Of a stretch of DNA of 64,000 bases, positions 3,767 through 14,362 are shown piece by piece. The DNA comes from Linnemannia elongata (Eukaryota > Mortierellomycota > Mortierellomycetes > Mortierellales > Mortierellaceae). Position 1 is the first letter of the stretch. Each line of letters starts with the position of its first letter. Made by a program: the position numbers and the translations under genes. The stretch spans positions 868,001 to 932,000 of the forward strand of contig JAXBDG010000017.1 of the NCBI GenBank assembly GCA_036320915.1, written 5' to 3'. The notes below the pieces were generated by a model. That model was given only the letters and a program-made list of their open reading frames with translations. It was not told the origin of the DNA and searched no databases.

Positions 3767-4456
3767 GATCAGATTCGGATCAGTTCGACTGAGGAGAGCA
3801 AGAAAAAAAAGAACCCGGGCGAATCAGTCAATTGCGTTTGAGCAAAAGAGTGACGAAGGAGGGGTGGGGAAAAGAGTGATGAGCCTCTTTTTTTTGAGAG
3901 GCAAAGGCGGTGGAGGGAGAGTGGAATGTAGAGTGTAGCAAGAAAAGTATGTAGGAAGGCCGAGAGTGCAAGAGTGTAAAAGGGTTAGGAAAAAAAAAAA
4001 AAAAAAGAAGAAAAAAGAGAGAAAAGGAAAAGAGAAATAGAAAGTTTTTGCAGACCTCAATTTTCTTTCATTTCCCAGTCACGGTGGCATTTTTCCTTCC
4101 CGTTTTTCCTTCGCGGATGGATATTTCGGAAGGATTCCCTTCGTTACATATTTAGTAAAAACCCCTGTCTTTACTGTCTTCACTGTCTTCACTCCACTCT
4201 CTACACTCTCTTCAACTTTACAACCACGGACAACAGCAGCTCTACAGAGTCTTCAACATCTACCCACACCAAAATAGAGGTCTCCTGACCGCCGAACGTA
4301 TGACTGAAAGAATACCTGCGAAACAACCCAATTTTCCTTCGTTCGGTTTTCCTTCGTGAAGGTTACTCTGAAGATGTTCACGACGTTTTTATCCCTTTTG
4401 CCCGTCCATGGAATGACAGACTAGGATAAATGTACTATAGGTTCAATCTATAGAGA
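3767..4456. other. Intergenic: MATE promoter and 3' flank of the Fanzor fusion gene
   Basis: The left part (to about 4060) is pyrimidine-rich on the minus strand with long homopolymer runs, as expected for the MATE leader. The right part lies just 3' of the fusion gene's stop codon. It holds a tight cluster of TTTTCCTTCG-like motifs (separate entry). A 19-codon ATG frame at 4300-4359 is too short to call a gene. No clear terminal inverted repeat or target-site duplication was found. Confidence 0.5.
4088..4365. repeat. Dispersed TTTTCCTTCG motifs with small hairpins
   Basis: Two blocks, about 4088-4135 and 4330-4365, each carry two spaced copies of TTTTCCTTC followed by CG-rich bases. The second block ends in a perfect hairpin CCTTC-GT-GAAGG, and the first is followed by GGAAGG...CCCTTCG. 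The blocks are about 240 bp apart in the same orientation and lie 90-370 bp beyond the 3' end of the Fanzor fusion gene. In TnpB and Fanzor loci the guide RNA is usually made from the 3' end of the nuclease gene and its flank, so this is where one would look. That link is inference; no homology to a known omegaRNA was tested. Confidence 0.4.
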
Positions 4457-7400
4457 TTAGGGGCTTTTTGGAGGGGGTCTTGCAAGGGCCTCGGGCCGTC
4501 CTTGAGACTTGAGGTACTGTTTTCCGATCAAAGCAATGTTGTGCGCCCCCACTCCATCTCGGTGAATCCACCGAGTGCACTCAATGCAGGCGCATGCTCT
4601 AATCGAAGGCTTGGCAAGTCTTGACTTCTTGCCCTTAGAAACGCAAGTTGGGCACATTGTGGATGTAAGATATTCATCCACTAACGCTACCTTGTACCCA
4701 AGCGCCATGCACTATCAAATTTAAAAAAGATAAATGCATCAATATACATGTGTATCCATATTACCATGGTGTTGAAAAGACATATGGTACTTGTAAATAC
4801 AACCATCCGTACATCCTCTTCTTTCTACCCTTCCCTTTTCTTATCATTACCTTCTGCTGTAGCCTGCGCAGGAACGTTTGATGGACCGATGTGAGGTTAA
4901 GCCCTGTCCGAAAGGTTCCGTTCCCCAGGGCAAAAAGGACTTTTCTTTGATCGACAGATACATCCTTACAGGCCTGATCCACCATGCGCAAAACACCAGC
5001 AATAGCCAGATCCATCTCTGCCAACTTTGCCATCCTATGTTGGTGTACGGCCTTCTTCCAGTCCGACGACGAGTAGAATCCATGGATGATCGGCTCCAAC
5101 TCGAAATACTGCTGATGTGCGGATTTGACGGCGTCCAAAGATGCGTATGAGGTTGGATGGAGGGCATTCTCAAGATCATGTATCGAGGGTAGAAAAGTCG
5201 CCCTGTTCCTGTCATCCATCTTTCTCGTCCAAAGGCTTGCGTCGACACTATCTGCGGGGCCGGCTGTTGGGTGTTGTCGCCTCCATTCCTGCTCCCATGC
5301 TCTGAAGGCGAGTGTTGGTTGATACAGTGATGCGCGCTTCACCAACAAGTTGACCACAGTTGTATCATCAAGACATACACAGAACGCACCGCTCACAACT
5401 TCGCCTGGATCAATGCCAACCACCACCACCGACTCCAAGTTTTGACCGAATGCGTTGGTCATCGACTGTTGTGTTGGGTACTGCTTTTCGATACGTTTTA
5501 AAAACTCCTTGTAGCCCAGCGTTTGTCGATTCTTGGTGAGGTCATACGCCAAAAGTTGCAGCTGGTGGCCGTCCGTGCGGATGAAATTGTTTAACGCATA
5601 CCGAAAAAATCCTGCGCCTGGAGGAGGGGTCGGCAATGGGGGGTTCAAAGGCAACGGCGTTGTAGATGCTGAGGAAGATGATGAGGATCTGGCCGGGATG
5701 GACGCATTGTGCCGGGCTCGGTAATAGTTAATCCGGTCTATCTTGTATCGTGCGAGAGGTATTTGGCCATAGATGTTGGGGTATGTTGTGGCGCATTGAT
5801 CCATTGTTGTAGTGCGTTTCCCATATGTTGTCTGTTGTTTAAGTGCGTGCCGAACCGTGTTTCGATCTCCAATGAAAAGCATCTTGATGATGTTCCCGAA
5901 TGATGAACTGAGTTGTTGCCCGGCCCACTGAGAGGTATAAGTGCCGCCGCTCCAGATCAGTCCGACTTGACCTGCATCTCTTCCCCAAAGGATACTCCTC
6001 AGTTCGTTCTCACTGATGTCGATAAAGCCGTCGGTCATCTTGGACTGGATACAGAAACGAGGTCGGTTTGCCGCTGGAAGCTTCATAAGATAGCCCCAGC
6101 ATGATCGGATGTGTCCCGGCTTGAAGACAATTTTTTTCGACTTCTTTGAGGGGTCATCGTCATCGGTACTACCGACGTCATCGGCTTCACCGGCGATATT
6201 GGCTTCATCGACATCATCGGCTTCGTCAGCATCATCGTCCTCATCGTCCAGAGTAGCACCGCCATCGTCAGGTTTGTTTTCATCTTCTTGCTCAACTGTT
6301 GGAAGTTGGGAGGGATCGAACCCAAGCTTCACCATCTAGTATTGTTAAACCAAAAAAAGTACAATGTTAGACTAGGCAATTCACACACTCCAGTTATCAA
6401 TGGCGCCTCATCAATGACTAAGGCGATCAGTACCTTTGTGCGGATAGTTTGTAGCAACTTTCTGTAATGCAACTTCATAGCCAAACAAATCTTGGGCGCC
6501 AGCTCTTGGATGATAACAGCAAGGGGTATGCTGGATGGGTTAAGAGCCTTGAATCCCGGATGCAACTTCTTGAAGTCCTCAAAAATCGATTCCGCCTTTG
6601 TCCGTGCATCCTTCGACTTTAGGTCGGTAGCCACAGTTCCTTGTGGGCTCGTCGAATCTCGAAGAACAAACGACAACAGGTTCCCAATAAGCCTATCTGC
6701 CCAGGCCGAATCCAGAATGGTCTCCAGAAAGGACGTCTGACCACTGGTCATGGGTTGACCCTGGATCGTCTGCCGTGAACTGGGAAATAGCTCTCGGAGG
6801 ATCTGCATTTCAAGCATCTTGTAAACAAAATGCTTGGCGGTATTGACGATAGACACAGCCATATCAAGTCTCTGGGCAATCAGGTCGACGTTCGCCGTGG
6901 AGAGATCGGTAGCTCGTTTCAGACATCCCTTGATAGTTCCTGTGGTAAGGACGATTGTGGCGAAAGCACCCCTGAATGACTTCTTTAGAGCAGCAGGACC
7001 AGTCTTTTCCTTTTTTGGATATTGAAGATAACTCCTCTTTCCCTTAACTACGGGGGCAGTAGCAGCTTGTTTGTTGATGGTAGTGGAATCCTTGGGCTTG
7101 TATGGTCGAGGGGTTGAAGGTGTTAAGCCTGTCAACTCTATTTCCTGAATGGGGCTGGCCATCTCGAGATTGACCGTTTGAGGTACGTAGCGATCTGCTA
7201 AATCCGTTCGGGATCGGAAGCTAGACATAAAAGCACCGGTATTGTGAAGAGTGAGATTAGTACAGAGAAGCAATAGAAATCAATAAAAGTAGCTGGATAT
7301 AGCTAAAGATGACACTAAAAAGTACATACCTTGACCTCTGCCATTTCTGCCTTCTTCTTGACCGGGCGCGTGACTTATGGCGCCTTTCCCGCTTTTTTTT

Positions 7401-9022
7401 CTTTTTATAGAGTGGTGTTTCTTGGTTGATAGGTGGGGGCGCTGGTGGTCCTGTATGTGATGTTCGGGTCCGTGAGAAACGCTCCCAGTTGGCCTTTGCC
7501 TTTCTTAACTCGACCTCCTGAATGATAGTCTTGATACGGCTGAGGATATCGGGTGTAGAGGAAGTCGTTTCGGCAGTGTCGGTAGGTAAGGGATGCTCGG
7601 TACACATCACGAACGCTTGAAGGGCATGATCGAACTCGTTGTCTTGTATTATCAACTGGCGCTCAGCTTTCTCCACCCTTCTCGTGTCCCTTTTGTCGGC
7701 TTCCTCATTTCTTCGATTACGCGACGCTCTATTCAACATGGAGACCTCCGCGAGCTCCTGAACCTTTTCGGCGTTATCCTTTACATTTTCCAGGTATTGA
7801 GTGATGCAGACTTTGAATTGTCGAAGTCGTTCCTGGCAGCTCAGTCCCTGAAGTCCGTCCAGTTTGAATGTCCGAACAATCTTAGCGTTTGATACCAAGC
7901 CATAGAAAGGAACGCCGTCGGTATAGTCGTTGGTTGTTAATATACCAAGAAGAAGAAGATGGTCCGGGGTTTTGAGCTCGTATCGATCCAAGAGATCCTG
8001 TTTCTGAAATGTTTTCCAATCCTTGCCAACAGGAAGAGTGATCGATGTAGAGGCCTTATAGACCAACAAGTCGGAATCCTTGGTGATGACTCGAACATCC
8101 TCCGGCTTGACCGCATTTTGGAGACAACGGGCAATGCAGCAGTCGGCTTGGTGGGTGCAGCGACATATTGTCCATCCCAGTTTCTCCAGAGCATTCAGCA
8201 CTTGTCTCGCGGCATCGGGTGGTGCTCGATAAACAGACTTCAGACGCCGGTATAGCTGCTTCGTCCCTTTAATCTTCTTGTTGTCATAGTCCTTCTGGAG
8301 TTTTCCCATCCGTGTCGTTAGATCGTGATCCCGTTTCCGATGGGCATGCTCCTTCTCGACCGAACGGGGACCGTCGGCGTGGATTGTAGTGCGCTGCTGT
8401 GAGACTTTTTTCATAAGGATGTCGTGAATAACCAAGCCTATGTGGCCATAGTCCTATTGAAAAACCAAAGCAATGAGATTGTGTAAGTTACATTTCTTAC
8501 AGCAGCTTGATCTTTGCCCAAGTATATCTGAAAATGCAATATACTTACAATGCCCTTGTTGGCAACGACTGTGGTTGTAAGAGCACCATTACTGTCAAGG
8601 AAGATTTGAGCTGGCCCTCCTTGCAGTAAGTGTTGAAGGTTTGTCACCAAGGTTGTCGAAGCCGGGATGGGAGGGGTTACAACAAGCCCAGTGCCGGTCG
8701 GAGTACTTGTGCCCGAGGGAGATCCCAAGGTAAGGCGAGCATGCTTGGTGGATGGGCTCCCAAACTCGATACCCTCAAACTCTGATGGTGAATGAGGATG
8801 TTTTTGTTCGCCTTCTGGTATGTTGGTAGCGAAAGTTGTGTTTTGTGAATAGTGCATTCGGGCCTGCCTGGCTTCAAAGTTGATGGTATCGTAAAATGCA
8901 CGCGAGTTCAACAGGGCGAAGAACATCGCTGGAAAGTCCACATGGCATGTTTTTTGGGTGAGATCTTCTTCGGTTCCGTTGGAGGCCTCCTTGATCCACT
9001 TAGGAAGGGCACTGACTCCCAT
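4457..9022 (-). CDS. XPG/FEN1-like nuclease fused to a Fanzor (TnpB-like) RNA-guided nuclease
   Basis: Five exons (9022-8549, 8453-7330, 7220-6434, 6335-4851, 4711-4457), introns of 95-139 nt, all GT..AG and phase-consistent, predict about 1,374 residues without a stop. Residues 1-335 form an XPG/FEN1-like PIN nuclease: MGVSALPKW start, acidic residues at D29, D185, D262, D284, D286 and D334 (KDSD, TNDY). Residues 509-533 are a basic, NLS-like run. A poorly conserved helical part follows, then an Asp/Glu-rich linker (about 812-858). Residues 1100-1342 carry the TnpB/Fanzor core: RuvC-I VGIDPG (D1104), RuvC-II VDEYLTS (E1303), zinc ribbon CPTC...CIEC (1310-1335) and RuvC-III HRDGVGAHN (D1342). 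Known TnpB/Fanzor proteins cut DNA guided by omegaRNA; FEN1 proteins cut 5' flaps. Activity here is inferred. Alternative: two adjacent genes, which the splice phases argue against. Confidence 0.88.
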
Positions 9023-9042
9023 TCCTGAACTATGTTCAGGAA
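9022..9042. repeat. Perfect 9-bp inverted repeat at the fusion gene's start codon
   Basis: TTCCTGAAC and GTTCAGGAA are separated by TAT. The left arm starts at the first base pair of the fusion gene's ATG, so the transcript could form a hairpin directly before and touching the start codon. It could also be a palindromic protein-binding site. No further support is visible. Confidence 0.6.
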
Positions 9043-9300
9043 ATTGAGCATGCTAGGGTGAGTCTTTTTGCTTGTTGAGTTGTGAAGAATAAATTGAGCG
9101 TGATTCGCAATCATATCCAGCATTGGCCTTACAGAATGTTACTTGGAGGACTTAGAATGAGTATAGCAAAGATATATGTAGAGTGGTGTGTAGGAAGATG
9201 TGGACGAGAGTATGAGAAGTGAAGTTTACTTGAGAGAGTGTGGTTGGAAGCTGATGAGGAAGGAAGGAAAGATGGGAAATGGAGGTGGGTTTTATAGAAA
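9023..9300 (-). promoter_or_regulatory. Putative promoter and leader of the Fanzor fusion gene
   Basis: On the minus strand TATAAAA occurs at 9296-9290, about 270 nt before the ATG, followed by a C/T-rich leader. This is the layout of an ordinary RNA polymerase II fungal promoter and suggests the gene is transcribed on its own. Transcription start unknown. Confidence 0.45.
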
Positions 9301-9479
9301 AGGAGGAGGTAGAAAATGATATGCTTATGTATAGAGACTACTATACTACTTATGAAGTTCTCCTATGCCTACCTTATGCAACACAGCCAAAAATGACCTG
9401 CTCAAGGCTCCTTGATCCAATTTGCTTCAAAAGAAAAGACCATGCATACTTTGCATGATAGTCAACATCACAAACCATG
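9301..9479. other. Short spacer, no gene seen
   Basis: The sequence lies between the fusion gene's promoter and the minisatellite. No coding or structural signal was recognised. Confidence 0.4.
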
Positions 9480-10195
9480 GCCTCTCTTCTTTTTCTCTTT
9501 TTTTGCCTCTTTGTTCTTCTCTCTCTGTCTGTCCTTCTCATTCTGTTTATTTTTCTTTGGTTGTTTTTCTCACGATTGTGGATTTCGCCTCTCTGTCTAC
9601 TTGTTCCTCTCTGTCTGCTTGTATCTCTCTGTTTGTCCCTCTCTGTTTGTTTATTTTTCCTTCTCGCGATTGTGGATTTCGCCTCTCTGTCTGCTTGTCC
9701 TTCGCTTTCTGTTCGCCTCTGTCTGTTCCTCTCTATCTGTCCCTCTCTTTCTGTTTGTTTATTTTTCCTTCTCACGATTGTGGATTTCGCCTCTCTGTCT
9801 ACCTGTCCCACTCTGTCTGCTTGTCTTTCTCTGTTAGTCCCTCTCTTTCTGTTTATTTTTCTTTGGTTGTTCTTCTCACGATATTGGACTTCGCCTCTCT
9901 GTATGTCTTTCTGTTTGTGCCTCACTTTTTTCTTCTCTGTCTTTTCTCTCTGTCTTTTCTCTCCGTCTGTCCCTCTCTGTTTGTTTATTTTTCCTTCTCG
10001 CGATTGTGGATTTCGCCTCTCTGTCTGTTCCTCTCTGTTTGTCCCTCTCTTTCTGTTTGTTTATTTTTCCTTCTCACGATTGTGGATTTCGCCTCTCTGT
10101 CTGTGCCCCTCTGCTGTTGTTCCTCTTTGTTTGTCCCTCTCTAGATTTCGCCTCTCTCCCTCTCTTTGTCGCTTTTCTGTCTCTCATTATCTTTG
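9480..10195. repeat. Degenerate C/T-rich minisatellite
   Basis: A unit built around GATTGTGGATTTCGCCTCTC preceded by TTTATTTTTCCTTCTC recurs near 9573, 9668, 9776, 9878, 10002 and 10078, with a partial copy at about 10144. Spacing varies from about 75 to 125 bp, with runs of CCTCTCTGTCTG between. All frames stay open because the unit contains few stops, which creates spurious long frames on both strands. It sits between the nuclease fusion gene and the Argonaute relic. Confidence 0.85.
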
Positions 10196-10319
10196 TGGCC
10201 GATGTAAACCATCCCGCAGACTGCCTTTTATGAATCATAATACTGCATGAGCAAGCTCTATATTTCGTGTTTACTACAGTAAGTGATACAATATATACTT
10301 CCACCACTGCGATGTTAGC
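10196..10319. other. Spacer before the Argonaute relic
   Basis: Short non-coding stretch. The 5' part of an Argonaute PIWI domain, including the first catalytic Asp region, would be expected here but is not recognisable. Confidence 0.4.
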
Positions 10320-11063
10320 ATCTGTGGATATGAAGAACGCCAAATATGCTACCTCTATTCAAGCACTGGAGCCACGCCTGCAAGCCATTGTAGACCTGGA
10401 AGATATGGTCGTCGAGCGTTGATAAGTAAGTATCTCCAAGGAATTGTCGACTGTCTCCATTTCTGTCGGACAGCTAAAGCATGTTCATGTATTCGTACTA
10501 ACCTACCATTCACTTCTGCTTTCGGCAGTTCTTTGCTTCTTTTGCAGGACCATGAAAAAGCCTGAAAGGGTTTTGTTCTACCGCGACAGAGTTTTGCAGA
10601 GTCAGTTTGTGCAAGTTCATCGCGACGAGGTGGCTGTCATTCGGCCAGCCTGCAAGAAACTATATGTTACCTATGTTTCCAAGATCACACCTTGCTCTGA
10701 AGCGTTATTATGCTTGCTTGTTTTCAATGCAGAAGGATCTGGCCGATCAATCAGGGATCTGCCCGCCCGGGACTGTGGTGAACACTGGCATTATTCATCC
10801 ATTCGAATATGGCTTTCATATGTAGTCGCATGTGGGTCTGATTAGAACTTCGACACCTGCTCAATGCAACGTCCTCTGCAATGAAAACCGTTTTCATGTC
10901 GGTCAGTTTCCAGAAACTGGCCGACACACTGTTCTTCTATGTGCTCGATGCACTCGATCCGTCGTTATGGTCCCTGCGGCGTTCTATGGCCGTACAGAGA
11001 GCATGCTTCCATACAAAGGGTGTGAATTGGAGCGAGACCCACGTCCTTAGAGAGATTGATTGA
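10320..11063 (+). pseudogene. Argonaute (PIWI domain) relic, frameshifted
   Basis: Fragments in different frames match the C-terminal PIWI domain of Argonaute in the right order. The first is SVDMKNAKYATSIQ..DLEDMV (10320-10421). An intron-like GT..AG follows, then KPERVLFYRD...QF..V (10551-10650), a frameshift, MQKDLADQSG.CPPGTVV..HPFE (about 10727-10810), a stop and frameshift, and finally NVLCNENRF...RCTRSVVMVP (about 10867-10990). The second catalytic Asp (FYRD) survives, but the catalytic His before VL..EN is Asn. PAZ, MID and the N-terminus are absent. Intact Argonautes are the slicer of RNA interference; this copy cannot encode one. Confidence 0.85.
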
Positions 11064-11515
11064 GCCGATTACCTATGTCGCGAGTCAACCAGCAGCTGCA
11101 AAGGATGTGTTATCTATGAAGCACGGAAGGGATATCTACATAGTACGTTTCATGGTTAACAGTAGTACTGTACGTTTCAATGAAGGCCAATACATGAAAA
11201 GCAGAGTTGGTGATAGATGCCCGTGAACGTTGGCAGGCTGTGACCAGCACGCCTTTTGTACTGATGATAACTAAGGAACCTTGGCTTTTATTTTTGCTTT
11301 GTGAGGAAGTGATAGAAAGAAATAACGCTTGTGAAGACTGAGAGCTTTGCGAAGGACGGATGGAACAGGAATGATTGTCCACCGCAGTTTCAGCAGTGTG
11401 AGTTCAAGGGGAAAAAAAGACGTTTTCTATCCTCAAGGCATCCAGCGGTCGTTGGCATAAGCAGGATCCGATCTCAGCCTTTTAATGCGATGACCCTAGC
11501 GTTTGTTCAGCCGTG
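11064..11515. other. Intergenic, no gene seen
   Basis: Lies between the Argonaute relic and the stop codon of the LDAF1-like gene. It may hold more decayed relic sequence and the 3' UTR of the next gene. Open frames are short and unrecognised. Confidence 0.4.
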
Positions 11516-12184
11516 TTAGCTGGTGAATCGTCGACCACCATCATGAGCCCTCTGCTTGGCCTCCCGGATTCGTCGCCGAGCCTCGCGCGTGTCACCCTGT
11601 CCACAGATCATGCCTAGTATGGCACAGGCCATGAGGTATCCGACATAAGCGACCATGCTGATCAACCCTACACCACAGGCAACCAACAGCGAGACTCCCA
11701 AGGCTGGGAGTAGGAACACTGAACCGAACATCGCGAATCCACCCTAAGAAAGATAAGATAGCACATGGAGACAGTGATGGGTTAGGGTAAGGAGTATTCG
11801 GATCAGTTTCGTCTATCAGGTTTTTGGCATTCAAGTGCGTATCGTCGTAGTCCTCATTGTTGCCAAAGAATCATCTCTCACCTCAACAATGGTAAATCCA
11901 ACTCCAACAACGATCAAGCACCCAAGGGTGACCAACCCCATGAAGCCCATGAAGCAGCCCAGAGGAATAGCCGACATGGCTCCAAATCCAACGACCCCAA
12001 TCTTGACACCTGTGGGTGCTTGAACATATCGGTTCTTGAGGTACCCCGCGGGAGGGAAAACATAGCGCTGGACTACGTCCATCTGCTTGACAGACTCCAG
12101 GACCGATTGAGCTTTGCTGGCAAATACCTGGGGGACTTCTTGGGCGGCGTCCCGGGCTTGGTCGACATTTCGCTCGACGTTCAT
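11516..12184 (-). CDS. LDAF1/promethin-like lipid-droplet membrane protein
   Basis: Two exons (12184-11882 and 11743-11516) join in phase 0 to give 176 residues. The core is a set of closely packed hydrophobic, Gly-rich helices with the signature FGAMSAIPLG, then IVEGGFAMFGSVFLLPALG. This lines up well with promethin/LDAF1 proteins (MSAVPVG..., ILEG...), which act with seipin at ER sites where lipid droplets form. The N-terminus has an amphipathic part and the C-terminus is basic and cytosolic-looking. An in-frame TTG lies just upstream, but the first ATG (12184) gives a sensible start. The family call rests on motif resemblance from memory. Confidence 0.75.
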
Positions 12185-14362
12185 TGTGCCCAAGGTGATG
12201 GTGTTGGTCTTAGTTGGGAGGTGGTTTTGGTGTGATGGCAGAGGCTGGATGTGAAGGACGCGTAGGGGGAGACTAAAAAAACGGGATTGTGTTGGTGAAA
12301 CACACTCGGGTGGTGGTACTGGAGCGTGAAGGGGTGTGGATAGGAATAGTCAAAGAGGAGGCGATCGTTGACCTTGCTGCGTTAAAGAAAGACGAAGGAG
12401 AGTGGAAAGAGTAGGAAGTGGAAAGAGGAGGAAGAGGAAAGAGGAAGACGAGAAGACATAAGAGCAGAGTCGTAGCTGAGAAAATTGCAAGCAACACCAT
12501 AATGCCGCAAGGATAGGAGCCGAGCGATAGAAAATGGTAGCCATCGATATCCAAGCATCACTTGCATTGATGGAAAGTGATAAAAGTTCGGAGCATTATT
12601 AATAACTCACACGATAGAGGCGAATGGACTCGTCGTGCTGTGAGACAGTACGTGACTTGACTCCTTCCTCTGATGCACGAAATCTTTTTTTTTTGGGATC
12701 CGGCCTCCATGCCATTAGTCCCATTCTTCAATGAGTATGAGGCATCAGGATTGATGGTTCACTTAATGCGAATGATGAGGAAGAAGGGGAAAAAATAGAT
12801 GCCGATGTTCCTGTCGGTCAGGTGTCTCGTTTTCTTGTGAGAAGCAACCCAGGTAAATAGGGAGGGGAGATGAGAGTCTGTGCAATTTTCATGTAAAAAA
12901 TTCGACCACTTTTTGTGGTAGAAAACGGAGGAAGGGATAGTAGACTAACGCAAGGAATATGCCCTGAGTTGGGATCGGATTTTTTGTTCTTTTTTTGACT
13001 TTGGGCCAAAGATTGATCAGAACGGAGAGAGGCTGGTTAGTCGTTATGTGTCTTTGTCTGTCAGGCTGAGTCCTACTGTTCCGCTCCCAAGAAAAGGGAG
13101 GCCACCGCTGGACTTGAAAATTATTCAAATCCAAAATTACACTCACTTAATACCTGAGTGGAAGTGAGTGAAAGAAATGGAGAAGGGAGACTCAGAGCCA
13201 GCTCATTACGACAACGACCTTGGGTCAATTGGATGCTGCTCGGTCGCACTGCAGGAAAAAAAAACAAAAACAAAGGCAATAACAAAAACAAAAACAAAAA
13301 AAAACAATCGATGTCATAGTCATCTATGCTGTCCTTCTTCTTCTGTTCCCCTCAAAGGAAGAAAAAAAAACATAAAAAAAAATCGGCCGTTTTTCATGTT
13401 CAGTTGTTTCTTTTTCTTCTCTCTTTTGACACTCAGCCATTGTTGCTTATCCATAGCATATTTTTCTCTTCCTTCAATCCTGTCTGCTCATACCTTTTCT
13501 CTTCACTCCTTCCTGCACCTTTTTCTTCAATCCATCAATCATGCCTTCACCCTTACTTTCATCTCCTCCACCTCCTCCTCCTCCCTCCCTCCCTTTAAAC
13601 CATCTATTGCTCTTCAACGGCACGTCCTCCCAACAGATGACCATTCCATCTCTCTTTGCCTTCTCTGCTCTCTTTTCTCACAAACCGAGCCATCTATTCA
13701 TCTGGCCCAAAAGGAGAAGTAAATGAAGAAAGAGCTTATCATGACCATGAATCTCCGTTACACCTGTTAGTGAGTAATTAGACACACCTTACTCTTCCCA
13801 TACCTCAGGAACCCAGGATTCCCTTACAACTCTTCTCTGACCAACCAGAAACCACCGACTGATCGGAGAACAACGGAGTCTGCTTGGTCTGTGCCCTCTC
13901 CCTTCTTCCCTGTTCCTCCCGTCACCACTCATTTTCAATCTCGTTTATCTTATTCAACGCCCATTCACTGCCTTACTAACTCGCACTCCAGTCACTCGTC
14001 TCCTAACTGAATCGACAGTTGAGGAACCGGAATCTGGGTTCCTGGAACGAGGAGGCGATGACGATTGTATTGCCTCTTTTTTTTGTTTGGTTGATTCGTT
14101 CGTTAGAGGGTGGTTTCGGTTTCGTGGAAGGAAGTGAGGAGTTTTTATTATTATTCGGGAAAGGGTCAGCAAAGTAGTAGTAGTTAGAGGAAATGGTAGC
14201 AAAGGAGAACAGAAGTGAAGGTGAAATTTGTGGAGTGAATGAAATGAAATGAAATGAATGAAAAGCAAATTGTACAAGAAGAGAGATATTAAAGAAAGGG
14301 CAAAGAGTGAAAAAGAGAAAGAAAAAAAAAGTGAGAAGTAGATGGAGTGCGCGCAGGAAATA
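12185..14362. other. Intergenic, 2.2 kb, no gene supported
   Basis: 12185-12570 is C/T-rich on the minus strand and is the likely leader and promoter of the LDAF1-like gene. 13320-13720 is C/T-rich on the plus strand, like the leaders of plus-strand genes here, but no gene follows it. The right end should hold the 3' UTR of the HMG-box gene. Frames in between are low-complexity. Confidence 0.5.

Follow-up and report, generated by a model that had tools for sequence, protein, structure and literature searches.

A predicted gene fusing a FEN1/XPG-like nuclease to a Fanzor-type nuclease in Linnemannia elongata, a member of a largely mobile family

Fanzors are RNA-guided cutters with a single nuclease, and their role in eukaryotic elements is open. 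The flap nucleases FEN1 and EXO1 cut 5′ flaps and resect 5′ ends of DNA. Among elements with a Fanzor gene, the closest described ones are the Fanzor1 elements (SPu-1, HVav-1 and kin, ROr-4/PBl-3/MCi-4), which, according to the excerpted text of their description, occur in Mucor-like fungi too (Bao and Jurka, 2013; PMC3627910). XPG goes unmentioned in the excerpt of that paper on Fanzor1 elements. No paper describing a FEN1/XPG-Fanzor fusion was found in the literature, searched mostly outside subscription journals; in the parts available, PMC12719977 is a review that mentions Fanzor and FEN1 once each, and PMC7286691 is a Cas12a paper containing TnpB and XPG. The initial annotation of the locus studied here had named no described two-nuclease system, and this agrees with the literature found, but the combination is already in public databases, since UniRef labels two relatives, P0019 and P0052, "XPG-I domain-containing".

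The window, meaning the whole 64,000-nucleotide stretch that was analysed, is C9:868001-932000 of a Linnemannia elongata genome of 51,144,381 bases in 32 contigs (named C1 to C32).

The fused gene and its relatives

The window holds a predicted five-exon gene that fuses a FEN1/XPG-like nuclease to a Fanzor-type RuvC and zinc-ribbon end, a gene structure that the splice-site and frame check confirmed. Five minus-strand exons join into one open frame of 1374 amino acids ending at 4457, reproducing the canonical splice sites and uninterrupted frame of the initial annotation, and the four introns (95, 109, 98 and 139 bp) are all GT..AG. An alternative donor for intron 4, with the exon ending at 4765 instead of 4851, yields 1326 amino acids and loses the zinc ribbon, so the donor chosen initially is the better one. 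The motifs also lie where they had been placed: MGVSALPKW, KDSD (D284/D286) and TNDY (D334) in the first half, and GIDPG (D1104), DEYLTS (E1303), CPTC (1310-1313), CACIEC (1330-1335) and HRDGVGAHN (D1342) in the second. The features, all on the minus strand, are as follows.

8549..9022, minus: exon 1, start of the FEN1/XPG-like half, with MGVSALPKW and D29 at about 8938 (open frame and donor, motif positions)
7330..8453, minus: exon 2, core of the FEN1/XPG-like half, with D185, Q260, D262, D284, D286 and D334 (frame, motif positions, fold of relatives)
6434..7220, minus: exon 3, linker and beginning of the Fanzor half (frame; Fanzor structures align from residue 418 on in the relative P0027)
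4851..6335, minus: exon 4, Fanzor half with the RuvC-I DPG, D1104 having its codon at 5411 (frame, motif positions)
4457..4711, minus: exon 5, alternative Glu E1303, zinc ribbon, RuvC-III D1342 and stop (frame, motif positions, Pfam TNB)
4388..4456, minus: candidate guide-RNA scaffold, two hairpins 3′ of the stop codon (fold -19.4 kcal/mol), the second ending where homology to other copies stops
12934..12940, minus: candidate far end of the gene-bearing repeated unit, an imperfect TATCCCTT-like inverted end (homology to the C1 copy stops at 12940)

The whole window protein has a single Pfam match, to Cas12f1-like_TNB (E 1e-9, 38.9 bits, cut-off 26.3), and scores 36.3 bits against the NCBIfam guided_TnpB model, whose cut-off is 100. 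Fanzors are recognised by a DPG at RuvC-I and by an alternative RuvC-II Glu six residues ahead of the first CxxC, as stated in the portion of the source at hand (PMC10711439). The window protein reads GIDPG at 1102-1106, and six residues separate its E1303 from C1310; its zinc ribbon (TNB above cut-off) is accompanied by the RuvC-III Asp, D1342 of HRD. The mobile relatives depart from DPG, with DGG, DAG or DLG at RuvC-I. All 13 relatives compared have the RuvC-I Asp and the alternative Glu, and at least 90% have the RuvC-III Asp.

The N-terminal half of the window protein alone reaches 12.8 bits against the Pfam model XPG_I_2 (E 0.082), below its cut-off of 24.2. Among seven relatives scanned, five exceed the cut-off of an XPG model: P0019 and P0032 together with TNB, and P0025, P0043 and P0046 with TNB absent; P0015 and P0016 have TNB alone above cut-off. 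We took alignment columns, from motifs and FEN1 numbering, to correspond to FEN1 D86, K93, R100, E160 (an Asp here), D179, D181 and D233, and none of them varies among 13 relatives of both kinds. In the window protein, the acids D29, D185, D262 (for E160), D284, D286 and D334, assigned by motif, are kept, while Q260 replaces E158. This first acid of the EAE motif is Glu in 24 and Gln in seven (the window, P0001, P0002, P0005 and P0007-P0009) of 31 rows matching the motif; the 20 further rows, left unread at this position, are gene models that do not match it. Flap activity of the window protein itself is predicted to be less sure than that of its mobile relatives because Q260 stands at the first acid of EAE. 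Between groups B and C of the mobile copies described below, whose proteins are 66.5% identical, pN is 0.22 and pS 0.82 in the FEN1 exon, against 0.21 and 0.74 in exon 4, with synonymous sites saturated. In two Linnemannia hyalina gene models (P0007 and P0008), a piggyBac-type fragment (DDE_Tnp_1_7, E 1.6e-17 and 5.2e-21) replaces the start of the FEN1 half.

A database search with the whole window protein returned 10 proteins at E ≤ 0.001, and one with the group B element protein returned 40. The third protein search, a profile search whose query was 13 of the 50 relatives then known, gave eight matches, four of them new. Every named match across these searches, which reach relatives sharing short words, belongs to a Mortierellaceae genus. 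The closest, P0001 from Linnemannia gamsii, is 72% identical over 97% of the query, and P0003 and P0005 from Entomortierella parvispora are 50% and 46% identical over 100% of it. Gene models of these other Mortierellaceae fungi hold both halves in one chain at 46-72% identity.

Sequence-only searches of the PDB gave nothing significant (best E 0.47 for the FEN1 half and 0.16 for the Fanzor half), and the claim of a fusion therefore rests on folds and relatives. In the predicted fold of P0009, from the window's own subfamily, all 50 of the 50 PDB matches listed are FEN1, EXO1, Rad2 or XPG entries. For P0027, a mobile relative of full length, the predicted structure resembles those of solved Fanzors (best E 7.8e-10) and of FEN1 (5.8e-7), with Fanzor and FEN1/EXO1 structures matched simultaneously and Fanzor structures aligning from residue 418 on. 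The models of these two relatives, rather than of the window protein, thus place both halves in the Rad2-type and Fanzor folds that had been named, and they support the initial interpretation of each half.

Copies in the same genome and the ends of the elements

A scan of the genome found 34 matches to the FEN1 half and 54 to TNB. A TNB match follows on the same strand, 2.6-4.3 kb downstream, in 32 of the 34, where 0.1 would be expected. The other 22 TNB matches may be diverged copies, fragments or Fanzors that lack the fusion. Matching between near-identical copies breaks off at sharp points. The 5′ parts of group B are 98.9-99.96% identical in six places and the 3′ parts 99.07-99.95% in the same six, with a seventh 3′ part, L047, at 97.6-97.9%. 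These youngest copies (at least 98.9% identical) are 4.7-kb elements with inverted repeats, and their ends read GGSTGCAGGACAATGGACGCC and GGCGCCAATTGTCCTGCAGCC. The end pattern occurs 39 times in the genome (reversed control, 0), and eight end pairs lie 4.7-5.1 kb apart, five in group B and three in group C. Of the 12 copies whose two ends were both read, eight are flanked by exact 8-bp target duplications (group B 5/5, A 2/4, C 1/3); one end was not found in group C on contig C31 and group A on C16 and C1, which were left out.

The gene model of group B also has five exons, coding for 1322 amino acids, and shares with the window gene the phases 2, 0 and 0 of introns 2-4. On the fusion strand of the group B element there is no frame of at least 130 amino acids beyond the fusion exons save one overlapping frame of 137, and on the opposite strand none of more than 125; the fusion is the sole gene recognised in this one element, examined on both strands. 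Elsewhere in the genome, L057 (C23:425900-435300) holds two fusion copies from different families head to head (C23:426391-430335, minus; 431222-434881, plus). A deleted fusion element in L071 adjoins a plus-strand frame (L071 61-1006), which, by its motifs, we take to resemble a pogo/Tigger-type DDE transposase.

Counted from the element start, the motif ACGTCAC starts at -17, leaving two bases before the duplication, exactly in eight of 17 flanks and with at most one mismatch in 12; at the 23 other offsets there is a single match, at -18. Three loci were left out of the 17: L073 (a fragment), L074 (within an esterase-like frame) and L075 (no fusion match). The elements' own 3′ ends contain GGTGACGTMA, with much of ACGTCAC inside it, and such a site within the 3′ end of a different element harbours one group A copy.

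The window gene is one of this largely mobile family. The "single gene" of the initial annotation stands as one fused frame, given the gene models of relatives and the 32 of 34 paired matches, but it is no lone gene. Homology to the window stops at 4390 on the C1 copy and at 4385 on the C31 copy. The C1 copy follows window 4390-5849 at 95.8% identity and then jumps to 11494-12940 at 90.8%, as either an internal deletion or a rearranged duplicate would. The unit common to both spans about 4388-12940. Its inverted ends are TATCCCTT-like, and inspection of them by eye revealed no target duplication; it is either an element or a duplicated segment. Within it lies a promethin-like gene (about 11520-12300, minus strand; Pfam Promethin 21.2 bits, cut-off 27), which the C1 copy holds along with the 3′ part of the fusion. 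The window copy is an older, diverged family member that lacks clear mobile ends and has one Glu-to-Gln change in its FEN1 site. Just upstream of the gene is a low-complexity stretch (9480-10190) of repeated CTCTCTGTCTG and GATTGTGGATTTCGCCTC units, and a MatE transporter frame lies at 357-1628 on the minus strand (E 7.3e-58).

Candidate guide RNA and proposed guided cutting and end processing

In the accessible part of PMC10711439, Fanzor1 reRNA scaffolds are predicted to include inverted repeats and duplications, a model that we adopt. Many element 3′ ends share a layout of a T run, a small hairpin and then a long hairpin, the last arm of which forms the end of the element. Of 15 termini, seven have TTCG at the loop position, five TCCG, two CTCG and one TAAG. 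Among 18 loci, a usable GGTGACGT-like terminus occurs in six (L081, L082, L083, L088, L091 and L093); L092 has the motif and was not used, and the other 11 have none. The second pair of hairpin 1 varies by family between C-G, A-T and G-C, the partner arm being in place in five of seven; it is T-A in L040, where the fold pairs GTGTG with CACAC, and just four bases pair in L048. The folds of 13 termini range in z from +0.7 to -5.5. In the long hairpin, 80.3% of cells are paired, against 28-51% in slid controls and a mean of 75.5% in shuffles, one of 500 shuffles being as high, and nine of 500 reach its covariation score. Pairs changed on both sides are not above shuffles, 451 of the 500 scoring at least equally. 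RNAalifold, given 15 terminal hairpins, returned another structure rather than the long hairpin, MAFFT on 12 termini did not align hairpin 1, and Rfam gave no match for five 3′ loci. The 3′ end of the window copy (4388-4460) also folds as two hairpins. On this mixed evidence, the two-hairpin layout could be a candidate guide RNA.

Our best explanation of the family, to which we give a probability of roughly 45%, is a five-exon FEN1/XPG-Fanzor fusion whose Fanzor half, in the mobile relatives, would make an RNA-guided cut next to ACGTCAC and whose FEN1 half would trim or resect the cut ends, after which repair would copy the element back or to a new site. The fused frame, the predicted folds of relatives, the conserved catalytic residues, the sharp mobile ends, the duplications and the motif are shown by the analysis. 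The RNA scaffold would be the element 3′ end, with two hairpins reaching the last base, and the guide would be flank read through from that end. After precise excision the site would read ACGTCAC-NN-duplication-flank, so that the motif would adjoin the guide match, TAM-like as for TnpB. FEN1 and EXO1 resect 5′ ends and cut 5′ flaps, so copying repair would be favoured. The anatomy fits a guided cut at an emptied site followed by end processing; the guide RNA, the cutting, the trimming and the repair route are steps that we infer. Among the putative functions proposed initially (repair, mobility and defence), element mobility is favoured. Several observations count against the best explanation. 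Four of the 12 sites have no exact 8-bp duplication (group C on contig C1 and at the second C4 site, group A on C28 and on C32), P0024 and P0026 are missing an acid from either half (SGGSD, NKFYTS), and the window copy combines Q260 with a lack of clear mobile ends. L034 folds no better than shuffles, and the minimum-energy folds of L035, L036 and L082 favour another pairing of hairpin 1. The FEN1-type domain could also serve purely in DNA binding.

The alternative that we take most seriously, possible although we lean away from it, is that the mobility comes from an unrelated DDE transposase, encoded elsewhere and acting in trans, with the fusion as a passenger that at most retains the element by cutting emptied sites. 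Inverted repeats and 8-bp duplications are typical of DDE transposases, and deletion derivatives, L071 and L072 among them, have moved while lacking a complete fusion gene. Single-gene Fanzor1 elements that lack their own transposase are known as well, from the excerpted source (PMC3627910). Yet a non-exhaustive search recognised no other element gene, the spacing of the eight end pairs, 4.7-5.1 kb, is what the fusion needs, and outside the fusion exons the group B element offers no frame of at least 130 amino acids apart from the overlapping one of 137. At the other extreme, the two-nuclease protein may be the entire transposon machine, working without a DDE transposase: the Fanzor half would select sites by ACGTCAC and an edge-derived guide, the FEN1 half would open and resect the ends, and the element would move and restore itself by guided cutting and copying. 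We regard this bolder proposal as doubtful.

Two further readings concern the protein itself. That the FEN1 half is a former nuclease, which now serves the Fanzor half in DNA binding or as a structural module, would suit the Gln at the first EAE acid in the window subfamily and the weak XPG score of the window protein (12.8 bits, cut-off 24.2); it is quite unlikely, as 13 relatives all keep the remaining FEN1-type acids together with the Lys and Arg, and between groups B and C the FEN1 exon shows constraint like that on the RuvC exon. Highly improbable is a joining of two adjacent genes merely by gene prediction. The fusion is predicted from genomic DNA, and in exons 2 and 3 the frame stays open beyond the splice sites, but gene models of other species cover both halves, the FEN1 half is paired with TNB in 32 of 34 cases, and the group B model agrees with the window gene in its five exons and in the phases of introns 2-4.

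Comparison with known systems

The pairing of FEN1 and Fanzor halves in 32 of 34 cases, together with constraint on both nuclease exons, suggests that the fate of the broken ends is as important as the cut. In the youngest copies the ends are defined and there are candidates for both the TAM and the guide scaffold, which makes the role of a Fanzor for its element directly testable here, and a guided nuclease with built-in end processing, if true, would be of technical use.

Like Fanzor1 elements, the family combines a TnpB-like gene, with RuvC and zinc ribbon, with eukaryotic elements, and it shares with some of them inverted repeats, target duplications and the apparent lack of an own transposase, as far as the excerpts of PMC3627910 describe them. 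It differs in its N-terminal FEN1/XPG-like nuclease, its 8-bp duplication and the ACGTCAC ahead of the duplication. With FEN1, EXO1 and XPG/Rad2 the family shares the predicted fold, a Met-Gly start, DG..EK.......R, and the two-Asp and NDY-type motifs. It departs from them in identity (12-18% among the structure matches listed), in reading E-A-D, or Q-A-D in the window, in place of EAE, and in being fused to a Fanzor and borne by mobile elements. As in TnpB of IS200/605 and IS607, a structured element end lies after a RuvC nuclease gene, and a motif stands beside the other end of the insertion (PMC10711439, in the part available). In contrast to those systems, the family is eukaryotic and has introns, inverted repeats and duplications, its guide RNA is a candidate, and each protein combines two nuclease domains and carries the alternative rather than the canonical RuvC-II Glu.
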